Assembly (NCBI GenBank): GCA_001969505.1
Contig: LSSK01000164.1
Coordinates: 1 to 53,858, forward strand
Length of the DNA stretch: 53,858 nt
Direction: 5' to 3'
Source of the DNA: Zancudomyces culisetae
Taxonomy: Eukaryota; Kickxellomycota; Harpellomycetes; Harpellales; Legeriomycetaceae
Numbering within the stretch: position 1 is the stretch's first letter; each line of letters starts with the position of its first letter. Shown one piece after another: positions 6,401-32,284 of the stretch. The notes beneath the pieces were generated by a model. The model ran no database searches and was not told the origin of the DNA. It saw only the letters and a list, made by a program, of their open reading frames with translations. Both the position numbers and the translations under genes were made by a program.

Positions 6401-7490
6401 AAATAGGATGACCCGTTTTTTTCAAAAGCTGCCAAGTGAGAACAATAAAATTGTATGAGGCATATAACTGGACATATATGGAATTGGCGGTTTACACATT
6501 TACCACTATTTCTAGAATATTTTGTAAAGTGATAATCTCAAAAACATGTCTCCATTCCCTCCACATCTTCGAATATTACTGTTACATTAGAACTTCTGAG
6601 TTATGTGGCATCATCATATATAGGATTTTTTTTGTATTTTCGGTTTTTTTAAAAATTCAATATCCGGTAACGTTTTGTAGTTATTATGATAAGTATGGTG
6701 TCTGAGAACACTTAGATTTTGGGTTTGATTCCAAAAAAAATATAGAAAAGACTGGGGAGAAACAGTATATCACATTGGCAAAACTTTTTATATATACTGT
6801 TTTGCGCTTTTATTCACAAGTTTGCACTTGTAATTCAATAATAACGGGAATTTGTGAGATTAGACAAGTGTTTGTGATTATTTTTTTGTATTTCTGCAAA
6901 ATTGCATGGCAACATAAAAAACCAAAATTCCTAATTTTTTGTCAAAATAAATCCTCGGTGTGATATAATTGTGGATATAGACATAAAACTAGAAAAAAAA
7001 ATTAGAAAAAATACCTGCACAGTTCAATACATTTTATAATATAAGAGTTTAAGAGTGTCTAAGCTTGTGTATAAAGGATAGATAATCTTAGAAAAAGCGA
7101 GATCTATCACTAAATCAACATTATAATACATAAACACTGATATTTGGTAGAGCCAACCTTCTAACCAAAAAAAAGGCACGGATTTTATTCGACTAATATT
7201 GATATAAAGCGGTGCTATTAATGAGAATAACAGTATTTCTCTAATGAAAACAGTATTTATTCGTCGCAATAGTAAATAAGACGGCGAAGAAGAATCATAA
7301 ATGCGAATTTTCTGACAAATCAGTTCCACAGCTCAATAAATTAAGCTAGAATAGGAGTAGAGAAGGGTGGTTTATACAAAGATTCTGATATCAGAAAAGA
7401 CCCGAATCGTCAATTTTCCTCCTCCGATACTACAAAAATAGTTTAATACATATATAAAACGAGGAAAAAGTAGCATTAAAAAAAATTGGT
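488..7490. other. Gene-poor AT-rich spacer, about 7 kb
   Basis: No convincing coding gene or RNA gene was seen on either strand. Open frames here are at most about 110 codons, low in complexity and rich in Phe, Ile, Lys and Tyr, as expected from chance in AT-rich DNA. There is a perfect 14-bp palindrome centred on CCATGG at 5509-5522, a short ATTATC repeat near 3145-3170, and a relatively GC-rich patch at about 5430-5780. No tRNA B-box or 5S/U6-like sequence was recognised. A gene made of very small exons, or a decayed element, could be missed by eye. Confidence 0.5.
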
Positions 7491-9769
7491 ATGGTGACAC
7501 CTACGGAAGCTTTCAAATGGAGGTTTCTTCATTCTCGAGGATACTCAAGGATAGCTAAATGCATGAAAATGATACTTGAATACAGAAGTACTGTGTGTGG
7601 AGTTACTCTTTCATTTCTATTGCTATATGTGCTGAGACAAATAAAGAGTCTAATTATAGACAATGAGAACAGTATAGAAAGAATATTTGACAAATCCTTG
7701 TATCTGGTTAAGGTAGCGGTGATATGCAGATTCATAGCCTTAATAATGAAGGAGTCTATCAAAGAACTCGCGATTCCATATGGCCTGCGGGTAATTATTA
7801 TTTTATTTAACTATAGCTCATTCAGTAGTGTAGTACATTAGTATTATCAGAGAAAGTGAGGTGAGAAGCGGTAAAGGAGGATAGAGTTAATAGATGCGAC
7901 AGATTTATTTAACAATACTGTGATGTTTATCCCCCCAAAAATAGGACATAGACCCACCGGTGCTAAAAAGTAGTGAATATTCAGTAGAAGTGTCGAACTA
8001 CGAGTTGCTGGACACTATAGTAAGTTACAGTTAGTAGTCGAGGTTTGTGGTATGTTAATGCGATACAGATATCTAAGTTATTATTTTTAATAATACACAA
8101 ATAGAATAACCAAGTGGTAAAAGCAGCCAAAGGGAACGATCACTTTTTAGTTGGGGGAAGATTTTTTAACGAGTATTATTCATTTCCTGAAAATGTATTT
8201 AGTAGATTAAAGTCAAGTATACAGGTAATAATTACGTAGAAAAAAATCAATATAAAAAAAAGGTTATTAGCGTGTATGTGCGGAGATGGAGTGTGCTAAC
8301 ACTGATATTTATTGTTTACCTGTAGGAGTTTTCAAGTTATACAGCGATGCTTGGAAACGAGAAATTTGACTCAGAGAACATAAAGGAACTATCGCAATTT
8401 ACTTACTTGGTGGATTTATCAGAATCTATCGAGGTTTGCAGTTCTGTAGTGGAAGTGGATATCGACAAGGCGGTTAGAACCTATGGGTTTAAAAGTGGAT
8501 TAGGATTTTCGGTTGTAAATTTAAATTCGTTTATCCAGCACTTTTTAGTCAATGCAGTTTCACACAGGTTTTTGGGAAAGGTAGGAGAATAAAGAGCATG
8601 AATGGGGTTGTTATAAGCATCTTGAAGCATAGAATTTTATAATTTGGTAGTTGATATAAATTTATAAATTTGGTAAACATAGGTTGTACTTTTAAACAAG
8701 GAACTAAAAGATTCTATTCGTGGTATTGTATCCGATGTTAATTCAGAGCAGAGAGGAAACGGATTTTATATTAAGAAATTAATGACGCTATACCCATTCA
8801 TGTGGACACGAAAGTTTATTCAGAGAAAAATATTCGAAAAATATGTGCGATACGAAATAAAAAGGCGAGAGATATATCCTGAATACGATTCACCACGGGA
8901 TTCGGTTCAGTATATGATTGAAAACACAGACAAATTTGACATGAACAACAAAAATGCAATTTGTGACTCGATTTTGCTTTCGATAAGTCTGGCGATAAAA
9001 CTTGTAACATCAATGATATACACAGTGTTAATAGATATCTCGATTAGGGACGGTGTGTATAGGGATCTTAAAGAGGAGCAACACAAGGTAGTGAGCGAGC
9101 ACGGCTACAGTATTAACTTGGCAACTTTAGAGAAAATGCCTATTTTAGACGCAGTTATTAAAGAATCTGTTAGGTTATCTACGAATTATGGTAAGTCCAA
9201 CCAACGTGATTATCGTCTTATTGAGTTACGAACATAGCACAGTTTAGGGTTCTATAACATTCTGTGGATGCAATATACTGATATATTACGATATTTTTTA
9301 AATGTAAATAGCAAATACACAAAGATACACCAACAAGAAAGTAGTCTTGTCAAATGGCGTTACAATACCAAAAGACCAATACGTATATTTTAACACTTAT
9401 ACTCATAACCGGTTTAATGACGTGTTTGGATCCTCACTGTTTGAGTTTGATTACCACCGACAACTAGGCCTAGATTCTGGCCTTGCAGATGAATTCCACA
9501 ACAACCTTATGTGGATTTATGGATCAAATGTACATTTTGCTCAGGAATATAGCTTGGCGCTAACCAAAATGGTTATAGTTTTGTTGGTCAGAAAATACGA
9601 AATCCTACCAGGAAGGAGTACCACTAACAAAAACAATCGCCTAATGCTTCATTCAATTACAGGAAATAGATTCTACGCCGGAAAAGCAATTGGTTCTAGT
9701 GTTCCACATGTATCCGTGCATTTTAAACCACGAGGGAACCACTTTGAGTTATTTGAAGATGCATTTTAA
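7491..9769 (+). CDS. Cytochrome P450-like protein lacking the heme-ligand cysteine
   Basis: Six-exon model: 7491-7790, 7945-8019, 8105-8224, 8326-8580, 8683-9190, 9312-9769. Every junction is in frame, every acceptor is TAG, and the product is 571 residues. Family signs in order: a membrane segment at about 33-50; VSHRFLGK near the end of exon 4, matching the VS.R.F.G block of fungal ent-kaurene-oxidase-type P450s; an I-helix region LAIKLVTS at 353-360; the K-helix ExxR as KESVRL (E411, R414); and VVLSNGVTIPKD, matching the L.dGt.iPKg strand. The heme-binding loop aligns without gaps as WIYGSNVHFAQ (487-497), where the family has FG.GRHACPGR. The invariant cysteine is His494 (CAT at 9533-9535), and the following Pro and Gly are also replaced. 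The PERF-type motif is weak. Without a thiolate ligand, ordinary monooxygenase activity is unlikely. It may be a recently decayed copy or a non-canonical P450 fold protein. The open frame across six exons argues against old decay. Confidence 0.8.
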
Positions 9770-10299
9770 AACAATAGCGATGTCTGTGACCGCTTAGAAG
9801 CTAGTCATTTGTATTTTTTGTTCTATCCTTTTTTTTTTTTTTTTGTACGACACTGCACTGTATTGCCTAGACCTAGGATGTATTCGTTTAACTTTTAACT
9901 TTGGTTTTGCTTTGGTTTGTTTTTGTGTTAGGCCTGTAAATTAACACAATGAGCTTAATAATAGAAAATGAAAAATAATAAACACCATTAGATACTCCAG
10001 TGCAAAACACAACAACAACAAAAAAAAGCGTACTTTTACCCAAGATACTTGGATTAATAGCATCCAGCTTGTGTTACTTTTCATTCCCTTTTCTATTCAT
10101 CTTTTCCTTCTTCCTTTCTCGCCAAAACAAAGCAAAAAAGAAAGAAAAAAGAAAGAAGAAGCTTAATGGATTAATTTTGAAATAGTGGATATAAATCAGT
10201 GAGTAAGCAAATGAATAATTAACAAAAACAAGAACGTTGAAAACAACAACAACAACAAAAAAAACAAAAACAAGAGTAAAATAAAAAAAAATAAAGTTT
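9770..10299. other. Convergent intergenic spacer
   Basis: A 530-base AT-rich spacer between the tail-to-tail P450-like and uL15m genes. It contains long T and A runs (for example near 9829-9844 and 10250-10295) that may serve 3'-end formation for both genes. No gene was seen. Confidence 0.5.
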
Positions 10300-11351
10300 T
10301 TATAGTTTAGAAAGATAACCTCTATTTTCAGGATTGGCATACCAAGACCTTAATTTAGCGTTTGTGGGTTCAGCAAATTTAGGAATAGCGATAAACTTTT
10401 CGGGTTTGAGGAGAGCCTTTAGTGCCAACCGATTGTGATAAACACAGGTAACTTTCCCGCCAAGCTCCTCAATCCGGGCTATCGCAGCCTTTGATGCCTT
10501 TGTAACGTGTATATCAACTACTGATTTGAACCGCTCTGAACCGCCCGCAAGCAGGCTTACACCGCAACCACTACCCATTGTTCTTGTTGAGAAACGAACA
10601 ATTTTGCAGTCAAACAGCTCCTTGAGTGTAATTGGCTTTTTTGGATCTATTCGCCCATTATCAATGAAATGTTGTAGCTTATCGATGTTTAGTGGTTCTA
10701 ATTCACGTTTAAACAGTGCGTTTTTGAACCCACGCTTTGGGTATCGTTTGTGTATTGGCGTTTGTCCTCCCTCAAAGCCTGGTGTCATTTTACGGTTTCC
10801 TGTTCTACTATTTTGACCCTTGTGACCCTTTCCACTGGTCTTTCCTTTTCCCGACCCTGGTCCTCTACCAAGTCTCTTCTTCTATTTATATGTAAATACA
10901 TACATACATGTATACGTATTTAGTATATATTCATGTATAGCCAACGTAGAAAGGTCAAGTACAACCAAAAACAAGTAAATGGAGTAGAAAAAAAAAATTT
11001 TTTTTTGTGAATGGAGAAGGAAAGATAGTAGAAAATATAAAGATGATGTAGAAGAGGAGGAGAAGGAGGGAGGAGGGGGAGATGTATTACCTTTTTTTTA
11101 GATCCTGGTAAATCGTTAATCGTATTCAATGCAACTACAATTTTTGGTTCTGCCAACATCGATCTGCCAACAGTACCATTCAATACGGTAGAGTATTTTC
11201 TTATGTGTTGCTGCTTGGCAAATGCTAATTGTTTCAGTAGCGATTGTATTTGTGGAACTTGTGTTTGGTTTTTGCTCAATATCGCCAAACATCGTGCCGA
11301 AATGTACTTTCCACCATTGTTTACCACAAATCTGCTCTTAGTTAACAACAT
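10300..11351 (-). CDS. MRPL15: Mitochondrial large-subunit ribosomal protein uL15m
   Basis: Two exons: 11091-11351 and 10300-10881, with an intron (GTAATA...ATAG) at 10882-11090, giving 280 residues. The first exon encodes a basic, hydroxylated N-terminus starting MLLTKSRFVVNNGGKY, typical of a mitochondrial presequence. Exon 2 opens with the L15 signature KKRLGRGPGSGKGKTSGKGH, followed by GQNSRTG and GFEGGQTPIHKRYPKRGF, the glycine-rich segment that contacts 23S-type rRNA. The rest matches the L15 globular part (ITLKELFDCKIV, GGKVTCVYHNRLALKALLKPEKF). It assembles into the 54S mitoribosomal subunit. The fungal family has a similar length and an N-terminal extension compared with bacteria. 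The intron sits just before the RNA-binding signature. Confidence 0.93.
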
Positions 11352-11924
11352 TTTCCTGGTCGATTATAGAATCCTCTTTTCTTTATAGTTGGGATTTGAT
11401 TGAAGTGTTGGTGTATTTATACGATAGTCGTTTGCCAAAAATGCCAAAGAAAAAAAAAAGTCCAAGTCTACGAACAAAGTAGAATTATAATGATTTATAT
11501 TTCCAATTCTTGGGGGGGGGGAACTGATTTCTACACACAACTTTTATTTAAAGCTAGTAAATATTGCTTTGTTTTTTTTTTTTCTTCAATTAAACTCCAA
11601 ATATCACAACATTCTCAAATACAATTTGGTTTATTCTAGTTAATGTTATCTATAGAAAAAAAAAACGCAAATCAAATCAAATTAAACTAAATCAAATGAA
11701 ATCAAATCCAATTTCTCAGCACAGTAGAATAGGCATGAAAAATTTTTTTTTTCAGTGCAACCCAAACTTGAACACCCAAAACCTTGATTGAGATATGTAG
11801 TTACCAGGACAATAACAAAAGTGTTTATTGTTAGTAGGTGAAACGCGTTTAGAGCTACACTTAATAAAAGAGACCAGCTAATAACGAGTAAATAATTATT
11901 GCAAGCAAGGCATGTTTATAAATA
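11352..11924. other. Intergenic spacer upstream of uL15m
   Basis: 573 AT-rich bases between the uL15m start and the end of the acidic protein gene, both on the minus strand. It holds a 10-base G run at 11512-11521 and repeated AATCAAAT-like words at about 11665-11710. No coding sequence was recognised. Confidence 0.5.
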
Positions 11925-29023: not shown

Positions 29024-32000
29024 ATGGCATCCTCAGCTACGGAAATCGACATCGAAATCGACACAGAAACGGATACAGAAACCAAAGCTAAAGCCAGAAA
29101 TACACCCATAAAAACTAGAGTCAACTACAATTGGTATTATCCATTTATAAGGTTCTTTGAAAAGGTTAGTGTCCTTTTGCACAGGGTTTATCCATCGTGT
29201 CTCCTTTTTTCTGTTTTTTTTTGGACAAGAGGGGGGAGGAGTAGAAAAAACAGACATCATACAGACTAACTTGCAAAACCAAACTTGCTTGTATAAAATA
29301 GAATCATTTACTACATAGCTGTAAAGCCTTCGAGACTGAGGTGGATTTGTTTTCAATCCCACTGAAAAAAACTATACTACTAGATTCTTTGGAAGTACTA
29401 ATTGATGATTTACTGGTATTTGCACATTTCTTCCTTCCTTATTGATGCTTTCCTCTACGATTAGCTACATTTTTTTTTCTCTTTTTCTTGCTTAAAACAT
29501 AGGTGTATAACTAAGTATTCACATTTATACATATATAGCGTGTCTTGGATGAGTTGGATGAGTTGGAGAATATCGAATATATCCAGCGGAATATTGGATC
29601 GGATGCAACCGGAAATAGTGGCTCAAAACGTAACGATTCAACACCACAAGGTAAACGTTCAACACTTGTACCTGTGTTTATTCTCCCTTTTTTTCTTTTC
29701 TTTGAGCATATCCTAATTACTTTTCTCCTTTCTGATCCATTATTGTGTATTCAGTATTTAATATCCAGCTCATGTTACTAATACAGTATTTAACCTGAAA
29801 CCATTTCATTTTTAACTTTAGAATCGCAAAAATACATCCGGAAACTCGAGGAGAGACTGCGAAAACACCAACAGAAAGAGGTTTTGATAACTCTAAATAA
29901 CGATCAGGTAAAGAATAGATATACATTTTTTGACTCTCTCTACGTATTTACTTTTTGTTTCTCTTCTGATGCTAAAACATGATCAATTCTTCGTTTATAT
30001 AGGAACAGGAAGAACTAGATCGGTTTCTAGAGAGGCAACGAGAGATTATCAATGAAAGCAATAACAAAGAGTTTTTAGTAGAGAAAGCTGAGGGAGAGAG
30101 TAAGTAGCAAGATCCAAAGTGTATGTGTTGTATAAAAATATTAGATCCATTTAAGACAAGTTTTCTATTTCGATAAAATAGCAAGATGTTCCAGGGTTGA
30201 TGCTCGGGAGTTAAATCGAGGCGTGCAAATGGAGCGGGATGTTCTTGAGGGAACATACTTATTCAACATGCACTCAAATCCTCAAAAGGCCACTGATACT
30301 GATGGTAATAGTGCCGAAGTTAAACCATCAGCTAATGAGTTAAACAAAAATTCTGCACTTTCCGGGCTGGAAGAGAGAATTGAAAACCTAAAAACACATT
30401 TGAACTTGACGTTTAGTAAGCTTACTCAAATTCTCACTCTCTATCTATAGTTTTAGTATAAAAACAGCAAAACAAGATATATAACAATACGTTTTTTATT
30501 CGCGTAGAGGATTACCCATCAAAGCTCAGCATTCATCAAAAAGTGTCGGCTTTGGAAGAGAGAATAATGCAGTTGGAAAGAGACTATCCAGTTTGGTCGG
30601 CCTTACATTTTGTACAATCAGGGGAAAAGGTATCCTATTTAATCTTAGATTGTTTTATATAATTAAAAAAACTAGTGCCTTTTTTTCTTTTGGCCTTCGG
30701 AATTTAAAATTAATCGATTTACAATGATAGCTACCGAACCCATCGTCTTACACGATTGTTGCTTCAAAGGACCCAAAAAGTAATTCTGTGCAATTGAAAA
30801 AAACCAAGCTGACGCCATCGTTGAACAACCCACTTCCAGCTAAAAACACATCAACAATAGCTCAAGACATGTACAGCAACTATGAGAGCAACACAAACTC
30901 TAACCTTAAGGCCAGTTCACTTGTGATATCCGAACCCGATATTCTAATTCCAAACTCTCCAAAGAAACGGAAAAGAGGTAGACCAAGACTGACCGATTAT
31001 GTAAATATCAACACAACGCCTTCTACCTCGTTTTCGTTTATGAAGCCCAGATCGAAGGTCAAAATAGACAATAAAAGAAAGAAACGGAAATATACAAAAC
31101 GCGAAAAGGCCGTTGATGTTAATGAGCTCGTCAACAACAATACTGGTGACGCCATCAGCTCATCTAAGATGGACAAGTTGATTAAAGAACAAGTTGAGCT
31201 CCTAAATAAAAATAGAGCACAGTCTACGTCTCAATCGCAAGCCCAGTTTGCAGGTAAGGTGTACTGGCCTTTCTCTAACTCCAAGCGCACCTCTTCGCTG
31301 ACGAAAGCTGTCCTCACCAAGTTTTTGTCGAAACAGCAGCAGGAAATTTCTAAATTCACTATCAATAACGACGCAAATGCAGGTTTAAACATGCCTACTG
31401 GCAGAAATGTAGCATCTAGTTCCCACCACATGGTTGATGGTAACACCGCTATTGATAGCACTGGTAGTTTTGCAAATATTGATAACACTGCATCCGCTCC
31501 AAAAACTGTGACATCCACATCCACATCCACATCCACATCCACATCCACATCCACATCCACATCCACATCCACATCCACATCCACATCCACATCCACATCN
31601 NNNNNNNNNNNNNNNNNNNNNNNNNNNNNNNNNNNNNNNNNNNNNNNNNNNNNNNNNNNNNNNNNNNNNNNNNNNNNNNNNNNNNNNNNNNNNNNNNNNN
31701 NNNNNNNNNNNNNNNNNNNNNNNNNNNNNNNNNNNNNNNNNNNNNNNNNNNNNNNNNNNNNNNNNNNNNNNNNNNNNNNNNNNNNNNNNNNNNNNNNNNN
31801 NNNNNNNNNNNNNNNNNNNNNNNNNNNNNNNNNNNNNNNNNNNNNNNNNNNNNNNNNNNNNNNNNNNNNNNNNNNNNNNNNNNNNNNNNNNNNNNNNNNN
31901 NNNNNNNNNNNNNNNNNNNNNNNNNNNNNNNNNNNNNNNNNNNNNNNNNNNNNNNNNNNNNNNNNNNNNNNNNNNNNNNNNNNNNNNNNNNNNNNNNNNN

Positions 32001-32284
32001 NNNNNNNNNNNNNNNNNNNNNNNNNNNNNNNNNNNNNNNNNNNNNNNNNNNNNNNNNNNNNNNNNNNNNNNNNNNNNNNNNNNNNNNNNNCCACATCCAC
32101 ATCCACATCCACATCCACATCCACATCAACATCCACATCAACACCCACACCTACAACGTCTAAAACACCTACAACATCAACTGCAGATAATCCTGATACA
32201 GGTACTGCTTCTGACCTTGATGTTGATATCGAACCTGATCCTGATCCTGATCCTGAAACAGGCTCTGATTTCAAAAAATTTTGA
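29024..32284 (+). CDS. MBIP-like protein with AT-hook and Thr-Ser repeat tail
   Basis: Seven exons: 29024-29164, 29539-29650, 29822-29907, 30003-30099, 30182-30415, 30508-30629, 30731-32284. All are in frame with TAG acceptors; about 781 residues if the assembly gap length is right. The middle matches animal MBIP (MAP3K12-binding inhibitory protein, an ATAC acetyltransferase subunit) as I remember it: REIINESNNKEFL, CSRVDARELNR, LSGLEERIENLKTHL, then YPSKLSIHQKVSALEERI and LERDYPVW. The N-terminus is acidic and Leu/Glu-rich, with a small DNA duplication giving LDELDELE. The last exon adds a basic region with an AT-hook core, KRKRGRPRLTDY (30962-30997), and a second basic cluster KRKKRKYTKRE, then (TS)n, PT-rich and PDPDPD tails. 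A nuclear, chromatin-associated role is inferred. Residues encoded at 31600-32090 are unknown. Confidence 0.75.
31511..32129. repeat. CCACAT hexanucleotide repeat with assembly gap
   Basis: An uninterrupted ACATCC repeat runs from about 31511 to 31599 and again from 32091 to about 32126. The 491 N bases between (31600-32090) fit the repeat phase exactly: the repeat stops at base 5 of the hexamer and resumes at base 5. The repeat encodes alternating Thr-Ser inside the last exon of the MBIP-like gene and keeps its frame. The true length is unknown. Confidence 0.95.

Follow-up and report, generated by a model that had tools for sequence, protein, structure and literature searches.

A Zancudomyces culisetae P450-like gene with an intact spliced frame and histidine in place of the heme-ligating cysteine

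The locus described here raises the question of whether a P450 fold can be kept after its heme-thiolate ligand has been lost. Among 4304 fungal P450s surveyed in 2014, pseudo-P450s having been left out, the cysteine was reported to be the one position of the ligand motif that never varies (PMC3990721). A fungal gene that departs from this rule, but is intact and keeps the remaining frame of the pocket, would show a P450 outliving its chemistry. The candidate gene lies in a 53,858-nucleotide stretch of DNA (the window) on the contig labelled C261 in the draft genome (23.1 Mb in 859 contigs) of Zancudomyces culisetae, a Harpellales gut fungus whose hosts are aquatic fly larvae (mosquito larvae). 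We refer to its spliced product as the window protein.

The original prediction, made from the DNA letters, proposed an open frame of 571 residues in six exons with five in-frame introns. A blind spliced alignment, whose profile was built from 11 paralogues and contained neither the window protein nor the Smittium simulii protein P0001, recovered all five introns with identical borders and a score of 407.6, as compared to 20.5–25.7 for seven partly overlapping control stretches of the window (Table 1). Splicing yields 1716 nt (571 codons plus a TAA stop) with intron phases 0, 0, 0, 0 and 1. All five introns are bounded by GT and AG and each contains a YTRAY branch-like motif, although about 35% of such stretches do so by chance, and GC content is 0.366 in the exons versus 0.275–0.318 in the introns. 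A membrane anchor had also been proposed; the N-terminus is indeed hydrophobic, but hydropathy analysis places two segments there (residues 38–56 and 69–87) rather than one. A DNA search of the organism's own genome with positions 7000–10100 matched the window alone, giving no sign of an allele or second copy.

Table 1. Exons, introns and ligand-position codon of the P450-like gene in the window.
Feature	Position	Strand	Remarks
Exon 1	7491..7790	+	Codons 1-100; starts ATG; both hydrophobic segments; last residues of the exon AIPYGLR
Intron 1	7791..7944	+	Phase 0, GTAATT..TAG
Exon 2	7945..8019	+	Blind spliced alignment
Intron 2	8020..8104	+	Phase 0, GTAAGT..TAG
Exon 3	8105..8224	+	Blind spliced alignment
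Intron 3	8225..8325	+	Phase 0, GTAATA..TAG; CTAAC branch-like
Exon 4	8326..8580	+	Blind spliced alignment
Intron 4	8581..8682	+	Phase 0, GTAGGA..TAG
Exon 5	8683..9190	+	I-helix region, Leu at Thr position; K-helix ExxR at residues 411-414
Intron 5	9191..9311	+	Phase 1, GTAAGT..TAG; profile position 430, as in C198 relative intron
Exon 6	9312..9769	+	beta1-4 Arg424, SNGVTIPK block, PERF-like Arg469, ligand loop, stop
Codon 494, CAT (His)	9533..9535	+	Column of the heme Cys

The spliced-alignment script revealed a second intron-bearing gene of the same family, on contig C198 (L026, 24500–30500, minus strand). Its model is good in the 3' part alone and poor in the 5' half, and the additional introns returned by a low-penalty run are weak. 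Within the well-modelled part, one intron coincides in profile position and phase with window intron 5, and since this intron is common to both genes the window introns are unlikely to be frameshift-bridging devices; together with the blind spliced alignment, this led us to reject frameshifts posing as introns. We also considered intron 3 as a second shared intron but make no such claim, the aligner giving profile positions 173 and 196 for the two genes; by eye, both introns lie eight residues past KIF/NVF, in phase 0. The loop of the C198 relative, FLFGLNRGCPALKYS, retains the cysteine and is itself interrupted by an intron, and the gene has Ile in the I-helix Thr column.

Membership of the window protein in the P450 superfamily (PF00067) is indicated by a Pfam p450 match well above the cut-off (E 2.4e-18, 66.6 bits, cut-off 22.8) and by the presence of both the K-helix ExxR and the PERF-type Arg469; the match spans residues 222–469 and ends short of the ligand loop. 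Across the genome there are 25 Pfam p450 matches. Eleven distinct intronless paralogues (L007, L008, L009, L011, L012, L014, L015, L017, L018, L019 and L020) are 534–597 residues long and 23–27% identical to the window protein, and the eight that were compared with the Pfam profile scored 72.5–103.2 bits. These paralogues, the intron-rich C198 relative, two proteins of Smittium simulii (P0001 and P0002) and the window protein make up the family considered here, a divergent and expanded P450-like group. Omitted from the family profile A1 were the near-identical L010, L013 and L016, the contig-end fragments L027, L028 and L029, and P0002, while L021, L022 and L024 (further Pfam matches) and L003–L006 (canonical-type P450s) were covered by a listing of their ORFs. 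Several members occur as near-identical copies on separate contigs (L012/L013, L009/L010, L011/L016/L027 and L018/L028; 99.7–99.96% identical where aligned), which are either unmerged haplotypes or recent duplications. In L019, the 534-residue open frame has its first ATG 160 residues in, and its start or a 5' exon is uncertain.

The two Smittium simulii proteins were the only relatives found in the protein collection (7992 candidates scored per search). They are linked to the window protein with E-values of 1.9e-11 (P0001) and 1.8e-6 (P0002); better values from the family-profile search arise partly by construction, P0001 being inside profile A1. Neither has a Pfam p450 match of its own. P0001 (542 aa) has KSLL in place of ExxR, and its Cys-loop segment occurs twice near the C-terminus, by tandem duplication or through a gene-model error. 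The window protein and its paralogues were absent from the candidates scored, while the Z. culisetae CYP51 (L001) is present as a 100% identical entry, Lanosterol 14-alpha demethylase erg11. No report on P450s of Zancudomyces culisetae or Smittium was found in the open-licence literature.

Much of what had been singled out as altered in the window protein turned out to belong to the family as a whole. The I-helix Thr (A/G-G-x-D/E-T motif) is usual in P450s, if not universal, and was present in all five canonical P450 rows that we aligned. Its replacement by Leu in the window protein is real, but the column is aliphatic in all 15 family rows (Ile in eight, Leu in four including the window, Val in three) and so does not set the window apart. 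Likewise, the Pro-Gly said to have been lost after the cysteine is not a feature of this family, in which the cysteine is mostly followed by Leu, Val or Met and then Ala. Loss of the I-helix Thr and of the second loop Gly is no sign of a dead gene, because both are common to cysteine-bearing paralogues whose pairwise dN/dS values are 0.21–0.33. Two further family traits are a Trp for the loop Phe (14 of 15 rows, the exception in that alignment being the C198 relative) and the retention of ExxR and the PERF Arg (13 of 15 rows, window included; the two Smittium rows have neither).

The central claim of the original prediction, in contrast, was borne out. His494 stands opposite cysteine in each of the 13 other family rows that have a letter in this column (P0002 has none), the alignment through the loop is gap-free against the intronless paralogues, and the fifth-ligand Cys of the heme-thiolate signature FxxGxRxCxG is absent. 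At loop position 488 the window protein carries Ile, whereas all 12 relatives carry Gly or Ser. In the aligned sequences, the lost cysteine and Ile488 are thus specific to the window within the family. The Arg/His before the cysteine had been reported as changed as well, and the loop Arg is indeed Asn; however, this Arg is also missing from L017 (Ala), L020 (Glu) and P0001, and L017 and L020 keep the cysteine nonetheless. The window protein retains loop Trp487 and Gly490, ExxR (E411 and R414, at the residues predicted), Arg469 and the beta1-4 Arg424, which we take, by homology to CYP51, to be a propionate-contact position. Because it has no cysteine at the defining position, the window protein does not belong among the functional P450s.

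Could the histidine be an artefact, with a base error, a mis-assembly or a wrong choice of exon masking a cysteine loop? The genome is a draft in many contigs, which leaves some room for such errors, but we consider this explanation very improbable. CAT is two base changes away from any Cys codon and adjacent codons differ as well; the loop falls within one exon in the blind spliced alignment. As for an alternative exon supplying a cysteine loop, which the original prediction had raised, a six-frame pattern scan of positions 7000–10500 gave three matches, none of which was a P450 loop by eye.

We then asked how much of the family's constraint the window protein has kept. It retains 27 of the 31 columns that are invariant in eight representatives; the four lost are S192Y, K468H, C494H and I512V, of which only one is catalytic. 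By leave-one-out, the representatives themselves retain from 31/37 to 31/31 (84–100%), the C198 relative 15/26 and P0001 18/30. With a looser cut the window protein retains 50 of 63 columns. The family is under purifying selection, as judged by the dN/dS of close paralogue pairs (L007/L008, 0.21; L014/L018, 0.26; L011/L015, 0.33); values for L017/L020 (dS 2.87) and L007/L020 (saturated) were not used, and L009/L010 differ by just five changes. We also asked whether the loop had been lost faster than the rest of the protein and found no significant difference (invariant columns kept, 2/3 in the loop versus 25/28 elsewhere, p = 0.35; looser-cut columns, 3/4 versus 47/59, p = 0.61), these being weak tests with three or four loop columns. 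The branch leading to the window protein is long (1.76–2.05 changes per column) and has no firm place: in a 14-row tree, excluding P0002 and two outgroup rows, it falls in a seven-row group with L009, L011, L015, L012, L019 and P0001, the C198 relative lying in the other half.

These data bear on the two readings that the original prediction offered: either the P450 fold has been put to a new role, or the gene is a pseudogene of very young age. Retention of the invariant columns speaks against a pseudogene that is old or in decay. A P450-like gene that died recently, losing constraint so lately that its loop has drifted before any stop arose, is harder to dismiss: the branch is long, the loop has taken a minimum of seven steps over 10 sites versus 189 over 501 elsewhere, and the protein, like its paralogues, was not found in the protein collection. 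Nevertheless, it is disfavoured, and we regard it as unlikely. The five intron borders are intact, all 571 codons are open and few invariant columns have been lost. Moreover, the Cys-to-His change and the change from the majority Arg to Asn take two base changes each, and an unconstrained gene could hardly have accumulated two such double-base replacements within a short loop while still free of stops; when bases of the coding sequence were drawn at random, 36.5% of trials were stop-free after 20 draws, 8.75% after 50 and 0.9% after 100.

The new-role reading is the better supported of the two, since the frame and splice sites are intact and the invariant columns are largely kept. At roughly even odds (about 0.5), we favor a membrane-anchored protein of P450 fold that has lost its heme-thiolate ligand and has been kept by selection for a role other than monooxygenation; its likely role is that of a pseudoenzyme in the membrane or of a partner to another protein. 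The protein would be produced from the spliced gene and, lacking a thiolate-ligated heme, could not carry out normal P450 chemistry. Most simply, and by analogy, it may pair with a cysteine-bearing paralogue or another membrane enzyme and steady or tune it. It might do so free of heme, acting through contacts, as the Cys-less EryCII does on EryCIII. Counted against a kept protein are the long branch and the finding that the loop is no worse kept than the rest. In addition, P450s with a mutated invariant Cys are reported in the fungal survey to be usually misfolded and inactive (PMC3990721).

The retained Trp487, Gly490 and Arg424 fit a heme-free protein and equally one that binds heme through histidine, which is able to ligate heme iron. 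A natural His-ligated heme protein of P450 fold, with His494 taking the place of the thiolate in peroxidase-like, carrier, sensor or some other non-monooxygenase chemistry, is an alternative that we entertain only tentatively. It would draw on a pocket frame that is otherwise retained (ExxR and Arg469 included), in a family that lacks the O2-activating Thr throughout, so that the shift away from monooxygenation would already have begun. Engineered axial-ligand variants of CYP119 still work for carbene transfer, which lends this alternative some support, although His is not among the replacements in the part of the list concerned (PMC9837850). On the other hand, the side chain of His is longer than that of Cys, Ile488 occupies a position where the relatives have Gly or Ser, and the loop Arg is Asn (as noted, L017 and L020 also do without it). 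That the window encodes a His-heme P450, drawn from a family already without the O2-activating Thr and forming a natural counterpart of the laboratory axial-ligand variants, is an unlikely proposition.

Comparison with known systems places the window protein more precisely. Its nearest solved relative is CYP51 (5jlc_A, E 2.4e-5), while that of the family profile (window protein, paralogues and P0001) is CYP3A5 (5veu_A, E 1.6e-17), with the Cys loops aligned. With the superfamily it shares a sequence-based fold assignment, ExxR, the PERF-like Arg, the beta1-4 Arg and a hydrophobic N-terminus; unlike the superfamily, it lacks the Cys ligand, the I-helix Thr and the second loop Gly, and has Trp for the loop Phe. 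The 11 intronless paralogues resemble it in the aliphatic residue at the I-helix Thr position, in the loop Trp and in being alignable over most of their length, but all 11 have the cysteine and none has introns. A different kind of P450 partner is the X-domain of glycopeptide synthetases, which recruits P450s; it belongs to the condensation-type domains of NRPSs and is not known to be a P450 homologue.

Cys-less homologues of P450s are already known, and the window protein is a further variant. EryCII and DesVIII are reported to be homologues of P450s that have no Cys and serve as activators of glycosyltransferases (PMC3391682). By description they resemble the window protein in having the P450 fold without the heme Cys; unlike it they are bacterial, soluble and encoded in macrolide clusters, with a special N-terminal helix reported to bind the partner. 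Among eukaryotes, CYP5619D of oomycetes is reported to include P450-family members without the conserved Cys (PMC5919972), though these differ from the window protein, by that description, in being fused to a peroxidase/dioxygenase domain.

The family to which the window protein belongs offers natural steps: canonical P450s; the 11 paralogues, in which the Thr is lost and the Cys and ExxR are kept; Smittium P0001, in which the Thr and ExxR are lost and the Cys is kept; and the window protein, in which the Thr and Cys are lost and ExxR is kept. Such steps would allow a test, on natural proteins, of whether the thiolate is needed for the folding and retention of P450s.

Two other features of the window were observed. 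A run of N (masked or unresolved) at 31512–32125 lies within a simple repeat coding for alternating Ser-Thr. Downstream of the P450-like gene, at 10300–11363 on the minus strand, is a gene that we take, by eye, to encode a uL15m-like mitochondrial ribosomal protein; it contains an intron with the same GTAATA donor as intron 3 of the P450-like gene.
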